Source: Actinomycetota bacterium (GTDB taxonomy: Bacteria; Actinomycetota; Actinomycetes; Mycobacteriales; Mycobacteriaceae). From it: 64,000 nucleotides of DNA. Every line of letters starts with the position of its first letter. Position 1 is the stretch's first letter. The position numbers and the translations under genes are program-made. Of the stretch, positions 52,830 to 63,231 are shown in pieces. The stretch lies in assembly GCA_018268465.1 (NCBI GenBank), contig JAFDWN010000026.1, forward strand, positions 62,001 through 126,000, in the 5' to 3' direction. Below the pieces are notes generated by a model that saw nothing but the letters and a program-made list of their open reading frames with translations, had not been told where the DNA came from and made no database searches.

Positions 52830-54215
52830 ATGACCGCATCCACCACTGCCCGTGCAACCCACCTGGCGAGCGTTCTCGCCGACGCCGTCGTCGAGGATCC
52901 CCAGTCGGGGATCTACCGGGCCAACCGGAGGATCTTCACCGACGAGGAGATCTTCGAGCTCGAGATGAAGCACGTCTTCGAAGGCAATTGGATCTACCTG
53001 GCCCACGAGAGCCAGGTGCCCAATCCCGGCGACTACTTCACCACCTACATCGGCCGCCAGCCCGTCGTGATCACCCGCGACAAGAACGGTGAGCTGAACT
53101 GTCTGATCAACGCGTGCGCACACCGCGGGGCGATGATCTGCCGGCGCAAGACCGACAACAGGATGACGCTGACGTGCCCGTTCCACGGCTGGACGTTCCG
53201 CAACGACGGCACCCTGCTCAAGGTGAAGGACCCCGACGGCGCCGGCTATCCGGAGTCGTTCAACGTCAACGGCAGCCACAACATGACCCGGGTCGCACGG
53301 TTCGACAGCTACCGCGGATTCCTGTTCGGCAGCCTCAACGCCGACGTCCTGCCGCTGGATGAACACCTGGGTGACACCACGAAGGTGATCGACATGCTCG
53401 TCGACCAGTCCCCCGACGGGCTCGAGGTGCTGCGCGGCTCGTCCACCTACACCTACGACGGCAACTGGAAGGTGCAGGCCGAGAACGGCGCCGACGGCTA
53501 CCACGTCACCGCCACCCACTGGAACTACGCCGCCACCACCAGCAGGCGCAGCACCGGCGAATCCACGAACGACACGAAGGCCCTCGACGCGGGCAGCTGG
53601 GGTAAGTCCGGCGGCGGCTACTGGTCCTTCCCGCACGGCCACCTGTGCCTGTGGACGTGGGCGGGCAACCCGCAGGACCGGCCGCTGTGGGACAAGCTCG
53701 ACGAGCTCAAGGAGCAGTACGGCCAGGCCAAGGGTGAGTTCATGGTCAAGGGTTCGCGCAACCTGTGCCTGTACCCGAATGTCTATCTGATGGACCAGTT
53801 CTCGACGCAGATCCGGCACTTCCGCCCGATCGCGCCGGACCAGACCGAGGTCACCATCTACTGCATCGCCCCCAAGGGGGAGAGCGCCGAGGCCCGGGCC
53901 CACCGGATCCGCCAGTACGAGGACTTCTTCAACGCCTCGGGCATGGCGACCCCCGACGACCTGGAGGAGTTCCGCTCCTGCCAGCTGACGTTCCGGGCCC
54001 AGGCCGCGCCGTGGAACGACATGAGCCGCGGTGCCGAGCACTGGCTCACGGGACCAGATCCCGTCGCCGAATCGCTGGGTATGGACGGTGTCGTCTCGGC
54101 TGGTGTCAAGAACGAGGACGAGGGCCTCTACCCCGTCCAGCACGGCTACTGGCTGCAGACCATGCGCGACGCCCTCGCCCGCGAAGAAGCAACCGCAACC
54201 GGAACGGAGATGTGA
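52830..54215 (+). CDS. benA: Benzoate 1,2-dioxygenase, large (alpha) subunit
   Basis: Rieske non-heme iron oxygenase subunit of 461 residues that dihydroxylates benzoate at C1-C2. The Rieske cluster is bound by CAHRG (C96, H98) and CPFHGW (C116, H119). The mononuclear iron site follows at [16 protein letters not shown] precedes ATG 52830, while the upstream extension of the frame is noncoding. benB follows 4 bases downstream. Confidence 0.95.
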
Positions 54216-54219
54216 CGCC

Positions 54220-54744
54220 ATGACCACCACCGAAAAATCCAGCACCACCGGGAAACTCATCACGCAGAACTCGATCGAGCAGTTCCTCTACCGGGAGGCC
54301 CGCTACCTCGACGACCGCGAGTTCGAGAAGTGGCTGGACTGTTACGCCGACGACGTCGTGTACTGGATGCCGTCGTGGGACGACAACGACACGCTCGTGG
54401 AGGATCCGCAACGGGACATCTCGCTGATCTACTACGCCAACAAGGGCGGCCTGGAGGACCGGATCTTCCGCATCCGTACCGAGCGGTCGTCGGCGACGTC
54501 GATCCCCGAACCACGCACCAGCCACAACATCAGCAACGTCGAGGTCATCGAACGCCGGGGCGAGCTGGTGGACGTCCGATTCAACTGGCACACCATGTAT
54601 TTCCGGTACAAGACCATCGACCCGTACTACGGCACCTCGTTCTACACCATCGACTTCTCCGGTGAGCAGCCGCTGATCCGGCGCAAGACCGTCGTACTCA
54701 AGAACGACTACATCCACCACGTCGTCGACGTCTACCACTTCTGA
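54220..54744 (+). CDS. benB: Benzoate 1,2-dioxygenase, small (beta) subunit
   Basis: Structural beta subunit of 174 residues with the NTF2-like fold. Typical stretches are EQFLYREARYLDDREFEKWL, DVVYWMPSWDDND, and SHNISNVEVIERRGE, ending in IHHVVDVYHF. ATG 54220 follows the benA stop closely. The reductase gene starts 11 bases after its stop. Confidence 0.95.
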   Translation: MTTTEKSSTTGKLITQNSIEQFLYREARYLDDREFEKWLDCYADDVVYWMPSWDDNDTLVEDPQRDISLIYYANKGGLEDRIFRIRTERSSATSIPEPRTSHNISNVEVIERRGELVDVRFNWHTMYFRYKTIDPYYGTSFYTIDFSGEQPLIRRKTVVLKNDYIHHVVDVYHF

Positions 54745-54755
54745 AGGCGCACCCC

Positions 54756-57449
54756 ATGACCGACACCGGATACTCGGTGGCGTTGTCCTTCGAGGACGGC
54801 GTCACCCGCTTCATCACCTGCCGCGACGACCAGACCGTCGCCGACGCGTCCTACCGCCAGCGCATCAACATCCCGCTGGACTGCCGCGACGGTGCCTGCG
54901 GGACGTGTAAGGCGTTGTGCGAATCGGGCGACTACGACGGCGGCACCTACATCGACGACGCGCTGTCCCCCGACGAGGCGGCCGCCGGCTACGTGCTGCC
55001 GTGCAGTATGAAACCGCGGTCGGACCTGGTCCTGCAGATCGCCAGCACCTCCGACATCGCCAAGACCCAGGCCGCCACCTACACCGGGACGCTGGTGCGG
55101 CTGGATCGGTTGTCCGCCACCACCGTCGAAATCGGCATCGAGATCCCCAACCGATCCGAACTGGCGTTCCTGCCCGGGCAGTACGTGAACATCGCGGTGC
55201 CCGGTACCGGCGGCGACACCCCGGTCACCAGGTCGTACTCGTTCTCCAACGCCCCGCGGGAGAACCTGCTCACCTTCCTGGTGAAACTGACTCCGGGCGG
55301 GGCGATGTCGGAGTATCTGGCCCAGCGCGCCGCGGTCGGGGACACCATCACGTTCACCGGCCCCAACGGGTCGTTCTTCCTGCGGGAGGCGCAGCGGCCC
55401 GCGCTGCTGCTCGCCGGCGGCACGGGTCTGGCCCCGATCCTGGCCATACTGCGGAAACTGCGTGACGACGGCAGCCACCGCAAGGTGCACCTCGTGTACG
55501 GCGTGAGCACCGACGAGGATGTCGTCGCACTCGATGCGATCGACGACATCGCCTCGACGCTGCCGGGTTTCACCTGGGACTACTGCGTCGCCGACCCGTC
55601 GAGCGCGGCCGCCAACAAGGGCCCGGAGCGGGCCTACGTGACCAGCCTGATCGGGCCGGAGCACCTTTATGACGGCGACGTCGCCGTGTACCTCTGCGGC
55701 CCGCCGCCGATGGTGGAGTCGGTGCGCCGTCACGTCGCCGACGCCGGGATCGACCCGTCCGGGTTCTACTACGAGAAGTTCGCCCTGGCCCACGCACCGG
55801 CCACCGCACTCCCGGGGCAGGACACCGAAACACGCTCCACGACAACCGTCGAGGAGCTCCTCGTGTCCGCCGATGCGCGCACCGTCGCGGGGCAGGTGAT
55901 GCTGCGGCCTGCGGAGCTGAGCGCCCTGCTCGGCGGCGCCGCCGACACCGGCGACAGTATCCGCCGGATCGCCGGGCAGCTGATGGTTCCGGTCGCCGCA
56001 GGCGGCGTCACCACACCGCTGGACGTCGACAGCGAGCTGTTGATCTCTGCCGGGGCGCGCTCGGTGGCCGGTCAGGAAGTGTTCGCCGCCGCGGCCGCGC
56101 GTCCTGTCTCCGCACCCGCCCCGGTCCCCGTGTCCGCTCCGCCGGCGGTGGCTGCCGCACCCGCGGTGGCACAGGACGGCTACCAGATCGGCGAGGAACA
56201 TCCCGAGGTCCACGAGTCCGACGCCCTCTTCGAAGCACGCCAGGCACTCGAACTCGGCGCGCTGGAACTGACTCTGGGCAGGCTCTCCAGCCGTCAGATC
56301 GCCGGCTACCGCCTGCTCGCGGAGTCGACGCTGCCGTATGTCGACGGCGACCGGTTCGTCGACGCGGCCCAGTACACCGAGACCAACGCGGCATTCCACG
56401 ACTACCTGTTCACCCTGACCGGCAACGAACACCTGCTGCAGGCCTATCAGGCACTCGGGGTGAAGGGGCGGATGGGCGAGGTACTGCGCAACGCGACATG
56501 GTGCCATCCCCTGTGCGCACGCGACCATGTCGATATCGTCGACGCATTCGAGGCAGGCGACCGAACCGCTGCCCGCGATTTGATCACCGCGCACGCCGAC
56601 CGGGCCAAGCAGACCATGCGCCGCGCGATGGCGGACTCGCTTGCACGGCGGCGCCCGAAGTTCGTCACCCCCGGCAGGTTCGCGGGCAAGGTCGTCGTCG
56701 TCACGGGCGCCGCGCAGGGCATCGGCGAGCACACCGCCCGCCGGATCAGCGCAGAAGGCGGCACCCTGGTGGTTGCCGACCGCTCCGAGCTGGTCAAGGA
56801 ACTCGCCGACGAGCTGTCCACCGGCGGGCCGGAGGCGCTCGCCGTCACCGCCGACCTGGAACACTGGGAGGGCGCGGAAAGCGTCGCCCGCCAGGCTCTG
56901 TCGGCCTTCGGCCGGATCGACGTGCTGGTCAACAACGTCGGTGGTGCGATCAACTTCAAACCGTTCACCGAGTTCAGCGACGCCGAGATCCGCGCCGAGA
57001 TCGACCGGTCCCTGATGACCACGCTGTACTCCTGCCGCGCGGCGCTGCCCTCGATGGTCGCGCGGGGACAAGGCGTCATCGTCAACGTCTCCTCGGCCGC
57101 GACCCGCGGCATCCACCGCATCCCCTACTCGGCCGCCAAGGGCGGGATCAACGCCATCACCGCATCGCTGGCCATGGAGTACGCCGACAACGGCATCCGG
57201 GTGGTCGCCACCGCACCCGGCGGAACCGAGGCGCCACCCCGGCGCATCTCCCGCGGCACACCCGAGCCTGGCAACGAGACCCAGCGGGCCTGGTTCGACG
57301 CCCACATCGAGCAGACGGTGGACTCGTCGTTGCTCAAGCGCTACGGCACGCTCGACGAGCAGGTCGCCGCGATCTGCTTCCTGGCCTCCGAGGAGGCGTC
57401 CTACATCACCGGAACCGTCCTGCCCGTCGCGGGCGGCGACCTCGGCTGA
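54756..57449 (+). CDS. benC-benD: BenC-FCD-BenD fusion: benzoate dioxygenase reductase, GntR-type ligand-binding domain and cis-diol dehydrogenase in one chain
   Basis: A single open frame of 897 residues. Residues 1-100 are a 2Fe-2S ferredoxin domain (C43, C48, C51, C83). Residues ~105-345 are the FAD and NADH domains (RSYSFSN, LLLAGGTGLAPILAIL, YLCGPPPMVESV), together a full BenC. Residues ~365-445 contain two copies of ELL(V/I)SA(D/G)AR(T/S)VAGQ 60 residues apart, followed by an Ala/Pro linker. Residues ~485-630 match the FCD domain of GntR/FadR regulators, with H548, H591 and H613 at the metal positions and N544 where Asp is usual. No DNA-binding domain is present. Residues ~640-897 are a full SDR (TGAAQGIG, NNVGG, YSAAK), matching BenD, which oxidises the benzoate cis-diol to catechol. 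Internal translation of BenD from ATG 56628 remains possible. Confidence 0.9.
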   Translation: MTDTGYSVALSFEDGVTRFITCRDDQTVADASYRQRINIPLDCRDGACGTCKALCESGDYDGGTYIDDALSPDEAAAGYVLPCSMKPRSDLVLQIASTSDIAKTQAATYTGTLVRLDRLSATTVEIGIEIPNRSELAFLPGQYVNIAVPGTGGDTPVTRSYSFSNAPRENLLTFLVKLTPGGAMSEYLAQRAAVGDTITFTGPNGSFFLREAQRPALLLAGGTGLAPILAILRKLRDDGSHRKVHLVYGVSTDEDVVALDAIDDIASTLPGFTWDYCVADPSSAAANKGPERAYVTSLIGPEHLYDGDVAVYLCGPPPMVESVRRHVADAGIDPSGFYYEKFALAHAPATALPGQDTETRSTTTVEELLVSADARTVAGQVMLRPAELSALLGGAADTGDSIRRIAGQLMVPVAAGGVTTPLDVDSELLISAGARSVAGQEVFAAAAARPVSAPAPVPVSAPPAVAAAPAVAQDGYQIGEEHPEVHESDALFEARQALELGALELTLGRLSSRQIAGYRLLAESTLPYVDGDRFVDAAQYTETNAAFHDYLFTLTGNEHLLQAYQALGVKGRMGEVLRNATWCHPLCARDHVDIVDAFEAGDRTAARDLITAHADRAKQTMRRAMADSLARRRPKFVTPGRFAGKVVVVTGAAQGIGEHTARRISAEGGTLVVADRSELVKELADELSTGGPEALAVTADLEHWEGAESVARQALSAFGRIDVLVNNVGGAINFKPFTEFSDAEIRAEIDRSLMTTLYSCRAALPSMVARGQGVIVNVSSAATRGIHRIPYSAAKGGINAITASLAMEYADNGIRVVATAPGGTEAPPRRISRGTPEPGNETQRAWFDAHIEQTVDSSLLKRYGTLDEQVAAICFLASEEASYITGTVLPVAGGDLG

Positions 57450-57501: not shown

Positions 57502-58806
57502 ATGCCCGAAAACCGAAGAGCGCGCGCCCTCGCTTGGGTAGTCGCCCTCTCCACCGCTGCGCTCGTCTTCGACGGATACGACCTGGTCGTCTACGGCACC
57601 GTCGTACCCACCCTGCTCGCCGATCCGTCCCAGCTCGGTGCGATCTCACCCGAACAGGCGGGCGCACTGGGCAGCTACGCCCTCATCGGCGTCATGGTGG
57701 GCGCGCTGGCCGCAGGCGCGATCGGTGACCGCGTCGGCCGGCGCGCCGTCATGCTGGTCAACCTCGGATGGTTCTCGGTCGGGATGCTGCTCACCGCATT
57801 CGCCCAGTCGGTGACCATGTTCGGCTTCTTCCGGTTCCTGACCGGGATCGGCGTCGGCGCCCTGGTCGCCACCGTGGGCGCGCTCGTGGCCGAATTCGCC
57901 GAGCCGCATCAGCGCAATCGGCTCAACGCCGTCGTGTACAGCGGGATCCCCGCAGGCGGTGTCCTGGCGGCGCTGGCCGCTCTGCTCTTCGCCGACAGCG
58001 ACAGCTGGCGGATCCTCTTCGCGTTCGGTGCGCTGCCGTTCGTGACACTGCTCCCCCTTGCGGTGTGGAAGCTGCCCGAATCCCCGCGCTGGCTGATGTC
58101 GCGGGGACGCGAGGAGGAAGCCGTCGCGCTGGCCGCGCGCACCGGCGTCACCCTGCCGTCTGCGACCGAATCAGACACCGGCGGTGTCGGTTTCGCGGCA
58201 CTGGTACGCAAGCCGCTGGTCGGACCGACCGCCCTGCTCGGCTTGATGAGCTTCGTCGGCCTGCTGCTGACGTATGGCCTCAACACGTGGCTGCCGCAGA
58301 TCATGCAGAGCAACGGCTACGGCAAGACCTACTCGCTGACGTTCCTGCTGGTGCTCAACCTCGGCGCGATCCTCGGTGGTCTGTTCGCGTCCTACGTCGC
58401 CGACCGGCTCGGCAGCGCCCAACGCGTCGTAGTCACGACCTTCGTCCTCGCCGCGGCGATGCTGCTCCTGCTTCCGCTGAGTCTTCCGCTTGGCGCGCTG
58501 CTCGCCGCCGTCGCGATCGCGGGTGTGGGAACGATCGGCACGCAGGTGCTGATCTACGGACTGGTGTCGAACTACTACCCCACCCGGGCGCGTGCCGCCG
58601 GAGTCGCGTGGTGCGCAGGGTTCGGCCGCCTCGGCGGGATCGTCGGACCGGTGATCGGCGGGCTGCTGGTCGGCGCCGGGGTCGGCGGGTCGGTCGCATT
58701 CCTGATCTTCGCGGCGCTGGCCCTGCTCGGCGCCATGGTCACCGCCTTCGTGCCGAAGAGCCGTTCGCCGATGCCCGCCACCGATCAGGTCGCCGCGTCG
58801 GTATAG
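57502..58806 (+). CDS. benK: Aromatic acid:H+ symporter (BenK-like MFS)
   Basis: Twelve-helix transporter of 434 residues in the AAHS family. Signatures are DGYDLVVYGTVVP in helix one, GDRVGRRAVML between helices two and three, LTGIGVGALVATVGALVAEF in helix four and ESPRWLMSRGR in the central loop. The operon position after benABCD indicates uptake of benzoate. GGAG lies seven to nine bases before ATG 57502. A long hairpin follows the gene. Confidence 0.88.
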   Translation: MPENRRARALAWVVALSTAALVFDGYDLVVYGTVVPTLLADPSQLGAISPEQAGALGSYALIGVMVGALAAGAIGDRVGRRAVMLVNLGWFSVGMLLTAFAQSVTMFGFFRFLTGIGVGALVATVGALVAEFAEPHQRNRLNAVVYSGIPAGGVLAALAALLFADSDSWRILFAFGALPFVTLLPLAVWKLPESPRWLMSRGREEEAVALAARTGVTLPSATESDTGGVGFAALVRKPLVGPTALLGLMSFVGLLLTYGLNTWLPQIMQSNGYGKTYSLTFLLVLNLGAILGGLFASYVADRLGSAQRVVVTTFVLAAAMLLLLPLSLPLGALLAAVAIAGVGTIGTQVLIYGLVSNYYPTRARAAGVAWCAGFGRLGGIVGPVIGGLLVGAGVGGSVAFLIFAALALLGAMVTAFVPKSRSPMPATDQVAASV

Positions 58807-60606: not shown

Positions 60607-63231
60607 GTGGTCATCGGGTCAACCCCCTTCGTCGGGCGTGACCTGGAGCTGACCGAACTGGCCGACCGCCTCGCCGACATGCACGGCGTCGACGTGGTCG
60701 CCGTCGTCGGCGAGGCAGGCATCGGTAAGACGGCGCTGCTGCGCAGGCTTGCGGCCGCACACCCGGGAAGTCTGTGGGCCCAGGCGGCCGCGTGGGAATC
60801 CGGCACGCCCGGCGGGATGCTCGCTCAGCTGCTCGACGGGAACGCCGCCCCGGACCCGGTGGTCGCCGCAGAGCAGCTGGCCGACGCGGCGGCCGACGCG
60901 CGGCTCATCGCGGTCGACGATGCGGACAACGCCGATACCCTTTCCCTGCAGTCGCTTTCGACCATGCTCCGACGCCACCGCGACCTGCCGGTGCTGGTCG
61001 TACTCGGCGCCGTATCCGTGCCGTCGACGCTGACCGACGTCGTCACCGGCGAGCTGCGGCTCACCGGGCTGGACAGCCCGGCGGTGGCCGCACTCGCCGC
61101 CACCCGCGGCAGGATCATCCATCCCGCCATGGCCGACGCGCTGACCCGGCACACCCGCGGCAACCCCCGCGATGTGCACGCACTGCTCGACGAACTGCCT
61201 GCCACGCTGTGGTCGCAGCCCGACGCACCGCTACCCGCCCCCTCCTACGTCGTCACCCGGGTCGGGAATCAGTTGCAGCAGTGTGGTTCCGACGCGCGGA
61301 GCCTGGTCGAGGCACTCGCGATCCTCGGCCCCGCGGCGAGTCTGGCCGAAGTGGCGACGCTGGCCGGCCTCGGCGACCCGTCCGCGGCGATCGACGAGGC
61401 GGCGGCGGCGGGTCTCATCGCGGGCGGTTCGCGATTCGAGCCCCGGCTACGCGACCACCTCACCCGGGCCGCGGTGGTCGACCTGATGGGAACACGGGGG
61501 GCGAGCCGGGTCCACCAACGCGCCGCGGAGATCGTCATCGATCCGGCCCGCCGGGTCGCGCACCGGGTCGCCGCCGCTCCCCTGCCCGATACCGCACTCG
61601 CCGACGATGTGGCCATCCTCGCCGGCGAACGAGCCGCGGAAGGCGCATGGGCCGAAGCCGCCACGTTGTTCCGGGATGCCAGCAGGCTGACCCCCGACCC
61701 GCTGGTTCGCGACGAACGGCTCACCAGGTCGGTGGATGCGCTGATCGCCGCCGGCGATTGTGCCGGCGCGGCCGCACAGGTCCCCGCGATCGAGAGCCTT
61801 CGCGAAACACCGCTGCGTAACGCGGTTTTGGCGTACCTGGCGATAGTGCGCGGACGCGCCACCGAGGCCGAGGTCCGGCTGCGGCGCGCCGACGACATCG
61901 TCAACATCGACCGGGACCCCGACACCGCGGCACTGATCGCCCAGCGCTATGTGCTGCATTCCCTGGTCCGGTGCAGGGGCGAGGAACTGGTCGGCTGGGC
62001 CGACCGGGCCATCGATCTGGCGGGACGGGAGTCCTCGGCGGGGATCGAGGCGGCGGCGATCCGTGGCCTCGGGCTCGCCGCGACCGGTCAATCCCGCCAG
62101 GCCACCGCCGCGTACGACGAACTGGCGAGCTGGGTGCGGCACGGCGCCCAGGCGCAGCGGGTCACGATGGCGCGGGGCTGGCTGCAACTCATCCGCGACG
62201 ACGTCGACGGCGCCAGGTCCAGTCTGGAGAGCGCGGTGGCCACCGCGGGTCTGGGTGGTTCGGCGCGGATCACGCTGTGGGCCCACGCGTGGCTGGCCCG
62301 CGTCCAGTTCGCCACCGGCGAGTGGGACCGTGCGTTGCAGACCGTCGAGCTGGGCCGGGCACTCACCGCGTCGAGCGGGATCGTCCTGGCGGAGCCGCTG
62401 CTGGAGTGGACGGCCGCGCAGGTTCATGCGCTGCGGGGCAACTGGGCCGCCGCGGACGCCGCGGTGCGCAACGCCGAGGCGGTCACCCAGGACTACGAGA
62501 TCATGCGGATACCGACACTGCTGGGCAAGGCGCAGATCGCCGAGGCGGAGGCCGACTATGCGAAGGTGCGGCGGGTGCTCGATCCGTTGCGGGCGATGGC
62601 GCCCGGCACCTCGCTGCAGGAACCCGGACACTGGCCCTGGGTCGACGTGCTCGCCAACGCGATGGTGATCGACGGTCAGCTCGACGCGGCGGATACGTTC
62701 CTGCGGCCCTTCGAATCCCGCGCTCGCGCCCGCGGGCACCGGTCGACGCAGGCCCGGTTGGGGTATGCCAGGGGCAGGCTGCTCGGTGCCGCCGGTGACC
62801 TGCCCGCCGCGCGACGGGCGTTCGAGGAGTCGCTGCGTGTCCTCGAGGGTCTGCCCCTGCGCTACGACCTGGCCCGGGTGAACTTCGCGTTCGGGCAGAC
62901 CCTGCGGCGGGCCGGTAAGCGCCGCCAGGCCGACGAGGTGATCAGCACCGCCCGCGACCTGTATGTCTCGCTGGGCGCCGACACCTATGTGGCACGGTGC
63001 GACCGAGAGCTCAAAGCCGGTGGCGTGCACCAGGTTCGCGGTTCACGCGACAACGTCGAACTGACCCCCCAGGAAGAGGCGGTGACGTCCCTGGTCGCCC
63101 AGGGACTGTCGAACCGCGAGGTGGCCGCGGAACTGTTCGTGTCACCCAAGACGGTGCAGTATCACCTGACCCGGATCTACGCCAAGCTCGGGGTGCGGTC
63201 GCGCTCCGAGCTCGCGGCGTTGCGGCGCTGA
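60607..63231 (+). CDS. Large ATP-binding LuxR-family regulator (LAL/MalT-like)
   Basis: STAND-type regulator of 874 residues. An N-terminal AAA/NTPase domain has [15 protein letters not shown] and Walker A GEAGIGKT (residues 35-42), with LIAVDDADN as Walker B. A long helical repeat region follows (repeated Ala-rich helices, TPR-like, residues ~350-790). The C-terminal ~60 residues are a LuxR helix-turn-helix ([40 protein letters not shown]). GTG 60607 is chosen for its spacing from a -10; GTG 60601 is the alternative. The target is unknown, but pca and ben genes on both sides are candidates. Its last 55 bases overlap pcaJ. Confidence 0.85.

Follow-up and report, generated by a model that had tools for sequence, protein, structure and literature searches.

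A fused BenC-FCD-BenD protein encoded in a ben/cat cluster and its distribution among actinobacteria

The fusion of a benzoate dioxygenase reductase (BenC), an FCD ligand-binding domain and a cis-diol dehydrogenase (BenD) in one protein is real and is common to many actinobacteria. The example described here is a single open frame of 897 codons followed by TGA, located at 54756-57449 (+) of the window, which is the whole stretch of 64,000 nucleotides that was analysed.

Gene and domain organization

The gene is divided into the following parts:

54756..57449, + strand, fused benC-FCD-benD gene, 897 aa (single open frame; Pfam and NCBIfam matches)
54771..55784, + strand, BenC reductase part, residues 6-343, with 2Fe-2S cysteines and FAD and NAD domains (Pfam, NCBIfam)
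55785..56180, + strand, variable linker, residues 344-475 (conservation profile; 70-190 residues in 105 fused proteins)
56181..56633, + strand, conserved FCD block, residues ~476-626 (Pfam FCD at residues 491-615, nucleotides 56226-56600; conservation profile)
56634..56675, + strand, short FCD-BenD joint, residues 627-640 (length 14 in 76 of 105 fused proteins, range 11-23)
56676..57446, + strand, BenD cis-diol dehydrogenase part, residues 641-897 (Pfam, NCBIfam)

The Pfam matches on the 897-residue protein are Fer2 (13-87), FAD_binding_6 (112-207), NAD_binding_1 (218-324), FCD (PF07729; 491-615, 56.8 bits against a cut-off of 24.3, E 3.9e-15, positions 2-124 of the 125 in the profile) and adh_short (645-827). 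Both halves also exceed the curated NCBIfam cut-offs for the proteobacterial-type enzymes, BenC (NF040810) with 461.9 bits against 430 over residues 6-343 and BenD (NF040811) with 412.1 bits against 380 over residues 641-897. The preliminary description had claimed a full BenC, an FCD domain and a full BenD in one frame of 897 residues, and these matches bear it out for all three; its statement that the protein has no DNA-binding domain also holds, as a GntR helix-turn-helix is absent from the Pfam matches at E<=1. A true BenC-FCD-BenD fusion lacking a DNA-binding domain is supported by these profile matches. Within residues 345-640, the range for which an FCD search had been proposed earlier, the Pfam match covers 491-615; residues 344-475 lie outside the FCD and form a mostly variable linker rich in Ala and Pro.

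Residues C43, C48, C51 and C83 of the BenC part, which we take to be the 2Fe-2S cysteines, and S780, Y791 and K795 of the BenD part, presumably the SDR residues, do not vary among 41 aligned fused proteins. The source assembly (99.87% complete, 5.86% contamination) yielded no further full-length BenC or BenD; ranked by score, the matches that come next are 30% (BenC part) and 36% (BenD part) identical, so that the fused chain appears to be the sole source of both activities.

A frameshift, an assembly error and chance read-through are ruled out, as the same single frame recurs at 105 loci that differ in their BenC sequence. An independent BenD made from an internal ATG at 56628 (M625), raised in the preliminary description, is unsupported, since ribosome-site-like sequence is absent upstream. 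This residue is Met in 90 of 93 aligned proteins, and a match to at least 5 of the 6 positions of AGGAGG precedes none of the 90; such a match precedes 29% of 93 gene starts picked by script and, among 1195 further internal Met codons, 1%. The mean AGGAGG score of M625 (3.44) is slightly higher than that of other internal Met codons (3.15) and lower than that of the gene starts (4.14). Leaderless internal translation could still yield a separate BenD.

Gene neighbourhood

The location of the fused gene in a ben/cat cluster is supported. The CatA of the window scores above its family cut-off, and the genes next to the fusion are:

52830..54215, + strand, benA, benzoate 1,2-dioxygenase large subunit, start inferred (TIGR03229, 810.1 bits, cut-off 780.95)
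54220..54744, + strand, benB, benzoate 1,2-dioxygenase small subunit (TIGR03232, 271.4 bits, cut-off 225.55)
57502..58806, + strand, MFS transporter (Pfam MFS_1; TIGR00895, 249.3 bits, below the cut-off of 418.55), possibly for BenK-like aromatic acid uptake

Related stretches were compared on genome contigs, and the best 80 of 234, a set biased to close relatives, all carry BenC, FCD and BenD in a single frame (80/80) and all have the order benA, benB, fused gene (80/80). Within the fetched flanks of these best 80 loci, relatives of the LuxR-like gene of the window occur in 73, those of its LysR gene in 68, of catB in 69 and of its MFS gene in 21. A large LuxR-type regulator lies downstream in the window at 60607-63231; as its relatives lie near the fused gene in 73 of the 80 loci, it may control the operon.

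Distribution among genomes and plasmids

The preliminary description proposed a search of other mycobacteria for the architecture. In the source genus, 148 genomes were covered; matches at E<=1e-100 occur in 19 of them, and 17 of the 19 have the fused gene; G006 and G120 have separate BenC and BenD genes and no FCD. The source-family sample gave 45 matching genomes of 161 at E<=1e-60 (25 fused, 17 BenC-FCD with a separate BenD, 3 separate BenC and BenD), and the class sample of 394 genomes gave 15 at E<=1e-75, of which 11 are fused, 1 has BenC-FCD with a separate BenD, 1 has separate BenC and BenD, and 2 match to a single part only; some genomes are shared between the samples. The family of genome G149 has a different make-up, with 23 of 120 genomes matching at E<=1e-60, comprising 14 with BenC-FCD and a separate BenD, 8 with separate BenC and BenD, 1 with BenD only and none fused, in a count that leaves out a second BenC copy in G579.

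The record titles of the best 80 of 234 loci bear 21 genus names, including Mycolicibacterium, Gordonia, Williamsia, Nocardia, Rhodococcus, Amycolatopsis, Saccharopolyspora, Nocardioides, Kribbella, Kitasatospora, Knoellia and Geodermatophilus. Matches were obtained in 120 plasmid records; among the 30 listed, a single record, from Tsukamurella, has a place where 80% or more of the query is covered. The fused gene of locus L195 lies on a Tsukamurella tyrosinosolvens plasmid, and the record calls its protein simply BenC. One genome (G511, locus L129) has the fused gene together with a separate BenD-like gene that is 57% identical.

Origin of the fusion

Loci with both enzyme parts and distinct BenC sequences numbered 154 after 3 partial rows and 32 rows with an already-seen BenC sequence were dropped, with single-part loci (e.g. 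L123, L124, L129) left out. They comprise 105 fused loci, 31 with BenC-FCD and a separate BenD, and 18 with separate BenC and BenD. Four of the 18 are from proteobacterial plasmids (L196-L199), where, unlike in the fusion, BenC and BenD are two separate genes and FCD is absent. A quick maximum-likelihood tree of BenC and BenD was built from 106 of the 154 loci (62 fused, 26 BenC-FCD with BenD, 18 BenC with BenD), using a short tree search with SH-aLRT as the only support measure, and the proteobacterial rows were taken as its outgroup.

All 62 sampled fused rows fall in one clade (SH-aLRT 100), and the rows with BenC-FCD and a separate BenD fall outside it. The three architecture states need 8 changes in all on the tree, a count that alone cannot separate gain from loss. 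This topology is consistent with the fusion having arisen once, and because BenC-FCD with a separate BenD occurs in 31 loci, the sampled ones outside the fused clade, the simplest reading is that FCD joined BenC first and that BenD joined afterwards, once. The earlier picture of an FCD domain inserted between the two enzymes is not supported by these 31 loci. Read with the proteobacterial outgroup, the tree suggests that FCD was lost several times.

Three unfused rows, all from the source genus (L025, L026 and L121), are nested within the fused clade on starred branches. In each of them the reductase terminates shortly behind a single linker motif, and its stop codon shares the sequence GTGA with the start codon of BenD, with no space for an FCD domain. 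These loci are best read as having lost both FCD and the fusion, in what would be a single reversal on the sampled tree.

Linker and joint

The linker between BenC and FCD has a median length of 134 residues in the 105 fused proteins (range 70-190), and contains in the present protein three copies of a short motif, found by a motif search in the linkers:

55878..55895, + strand, linker motif copy 1, RTVAGQ (375-380)
55962..55979, + strand, linker motif copy 2, RRIAGQ (403-408)
56058..56075, + strand, linker motif copy 3, RSVAGQ (435-440)

Motifs close to R-x-[VIL]-A-G-Q number 220 in the 105 linkers, compared with a shuffled mean of 0.5 (maximum 3 in any of 200 shuffles), a comparison that describes a conserved repeat and is not an independent prediction, the motif having been defined on the same sequences as were counted. 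The fourth place is A in 192 of the 220 and the sixth is Q in 211. One linker has four copies, 32 have three, 52 have two, 16 have one and 4 have none. The strict form R-x-[VIL]-A-G-[QE] is present in 94 of 105 fused linkers and in none of the 31 unfused BenC-FCD linkers. At the DNA level, one pattern of the linker motif was not enriched in the source genome, with 11 matches (2 in this linker) compared with 15 for the reversed control. In one genus, unfused loci L170 and L185-L188 have linkers of 148-213 residues with another short repeat around ARPVGY, which is perhaps analogous to the R-x-I-A-G-Q repeat.

The FCD domain

Conserved positions of the domain were counted over 136 FCDs (105 fused and 31 unfused), and the putative metal ligands were likened by motif and spacing to those of Ps5454 (PMC7674646):

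56238..56240, + strand, R495, Arg in the first helix of FCD, presumed to contact a carboxylate (136 of 136 FCDs)
56385..56387, + strand, N544, putative metal ligand (134 of 136; like Asn144 of Ps5454)
56397..56399, + strand, H548, putative metal ligand (136 of 136; like His148 of Ps5454)
56526..56528, + strand, H591, putative metal ligand (136 of 136; like His192 of Ps5454)
56592..56594, + strand, H613, putative metal ligand (136 of 136; like His214 of Ps5454)
56502..56516, + strand, C583-x3-C587 (CHPLC), in fused proteins only (C583 in 101 of 105, C587 in 103 of 105; 0 of 31 unfused FCDs)

According to PMC7674646, Asn144, His148, His192 and His214 are nickel ligands in the solved domain of Ps5454; the spacing of N544, H548, H591 and H613 is 4, 43 and 22, compared with 4, 44 and 22 in Ps5454, a likeness of residue type and spacing that is known here from sequence. 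With these residues and R495 kept, the domain seems capable of binding a metal and possibly a carboxylate, and acid sensing by it is plausible. In DgoR, the same source states, metal is required for D-galactonate binding and the R102A mutant no longer binds. R495 is presumed to correspond to this R102 by its place in the first helix and not by alignment. In PDB sequence searches, whose matches were all weak (best E 0.047 and 0.044) and included unrelated chains as well as GntR-family ones, R495 falls opposite an arginine in solved FCDs of the GntR family. The FCD family and the N/H/H/H metal residues are shared with the FadR/FCD branch of GntR regulators (TM0439, Ps5454, LldR, DgoR, CitO), from which the fusion differs in lacking the helix-turn-helix and in being joined to two enzymes. 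A profile search of the source genome for FCD relatives gave one other match (E 1.6e-6). The C583/C587 pair could be a second metal site or a redox site.

FCD is the most conserved of the three domains in fused proteins (mean pairwise identity 78%, with 72% for BenC and 75% for BenD) and the least conserved in unfused ones (55%, with 68% for BenC and 70% for BenD). Among pairs with 70-75% identity in the enzyme parts, FCD identity is 77% in fused (2140 pairs) versus 58% in unfused proteins (79 pairs), and at equal enzyme divergence the domain is thus more constrained in fused than in unfused proteins.

Partial correlations of the distances do not support the idea, also considered, that FCD co-evolves more closely with BenD than it does with BenC. 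In fused proteins the coefficient is 0.55 with BenC versus 0.39 with BenD, a difference whose interval includes zero; in unfused ones it is 0.66 versus 0.24, and the interval excludes zero. This higher rate covariation with BenC leaves an FCD-BenD partnership unsupported.

Proposed function

In the pathway, each benzoate costs BenC one NADH, and each diol that BenD oxidises to catechol yields one. We consider it probable that the fused protein is a bifunctional enzyme, fused once, which keeps BenC and BenD at 1:1 and in which FCD is a module for regulation or assembly that binds a metal and a carboxylate. This starts from what was observed: the fusion and how it is distributed, a tree fitting one origin, the pocket residues and the strong constraint. 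A ligand, a metal, allostery, assembly and equal supply as the selective benefit are what the proposal would add. The N-terminal BenC would pass electrons from NADH to the BenAB dioxygenase, and the C-terminal BenD would convert the cis-diol product to catechol and regain one NADH; since one NADH is used and one returned, a single chain would fix the two activities at 1:1. Local NADH recycling is plausible, and NADH may be channelled. The FCD domain, as it keeps the metal and carboxylate pocket residues, may bind a divalent metal and a pathway carboxylate (benzoate, its diol or muconate) and would tune or assemble the complex instead of binding DNA. The linker would hold BenC on a long tether in which the motif R-x-[IVL]-A-G-Q recurs, FCD and BenD being closely joined, and the length of the tether suggests that BenC can move between sites. 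Benzoate dioxygenase is multimeric (alpha3beta3), and docking of the repeated linker motif to it may be put forward as speculation. Relatives without FCD keep the operon, which suggests that the domain modulates and does not catalyse; it is missing from 8 of 23 matching genomes of the G149 family, 3 of 45 of the source-family sample and 3 source-genus genomes, and is therefore dispensable for the pathway there.

The alternatives overlap, and their probabilities do not add to one. The benefit might lie only in equal expression and co-assembly of BenC and BenD, with neither NADH channelling nor sensing, which we regard as possible but on balance doubtful. It would suit the GTGA gene overlap of the 3 source-genus genomes without the fusion, which would couple translation, and a BenC tether that is long and variable, unlike a fixed channel, but the constraint on the FCD pocket would be left unexplained. 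Somewhat less probable is a purely structural FCD, a helical bundle dimerising or spacing BenC and BenD and fixing their ratio, in which a metal stabilises the fold and nothing is sensed. Lineages without FCD that still have BenC and BenD are consistent with it, as are the high constraint over the whole domain and the discussion, in PMC7674646 and PMC4746285, of the buried FCD metal as possibly structural; a pure spacer, however, need not keep the helix-1 arginine, a presumed ligand contact that is invariant in 136 of 136 FCDs. We judge it unlikely that FCD acts as an in-enzyme metal-dependent carboxylate sensor gating electron delivery or diol oxidation, where benzoate, the cis-diol or muconate would bind R495 and the metal held by N544, H548, H591 and H613, the motifs would dock the tether to the several BenAB alpha subunits, and the resulting complex would carry benzoate through to catechol and recycle its own NADH. 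A functionless leftover regulator domain, fused by neutral read-through of adjacent genes, is highly improbable: FCD-less BenCs do occur at several places among FCD-bearing actinobacterial ones, read as repeated loss, but no other domain of the fused proteins is as conserved as FCD (78% mean identity), its pocket residues are invariant, and about 20 named genera retain the fusion, for which the sampled tree shows one reversal.

Relation to known systems

Haddad, Eby and Neidle (2001) reportedly described BopZ of Rhodococcus sp. 19070 as a reductase of benzoate dioxygenase that is extended at its C-terminus by about 200 residues, a stretch then said to be unlike known proteins, and with the dehydrogenase as a separate gene. 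We take BopZ, likened here by description only, to be probably the BenC-FCD form seen in 31 loci. The preliminary description knew of no described protein with the order BenC-FCD-BenD, but the benABCD operon of Gordonia alkanivorans YC-RL2, which has LysR and LuxR regulators, is reported to contain benC and benD joined together with an FCD domain (PMC6362181, AMB Express 2019). The fused parts are the same, and G. alkanivorans NBRC 16433 (L067) is in the present fused set. In its accessible part, the YC-RL2 report (PMC6362181) is an in silico study of one genome and holds no distribution, tree, pocket or linker analysis. In Rhodococcus ruber Chol-4, a figure legend in PMC6498646 labels benC as reductase component/diol dehydrogenase beside a benD, which is perhaps an annotation of the same fusion family. 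The fusion itself was thus already known, and its distribution, single origin, pocket conservation and linker repeat, for which no earlier description was found in the openly licensed literature, are added here.

Implications

A fused protein labelled only BenC, as on the Tsukamurella plasmid, means that genomes with the fused gene can appear to lack benD. The natural comparison sets (BenC; BenC-FCD; BenC-FCD-BenD; the reverted lineage) would allow the role of the fusion to be told apart from that of FCD. If the proposed function is true, the ligand-binding domain of a regulator would have been reused to act directly on an enzyme.
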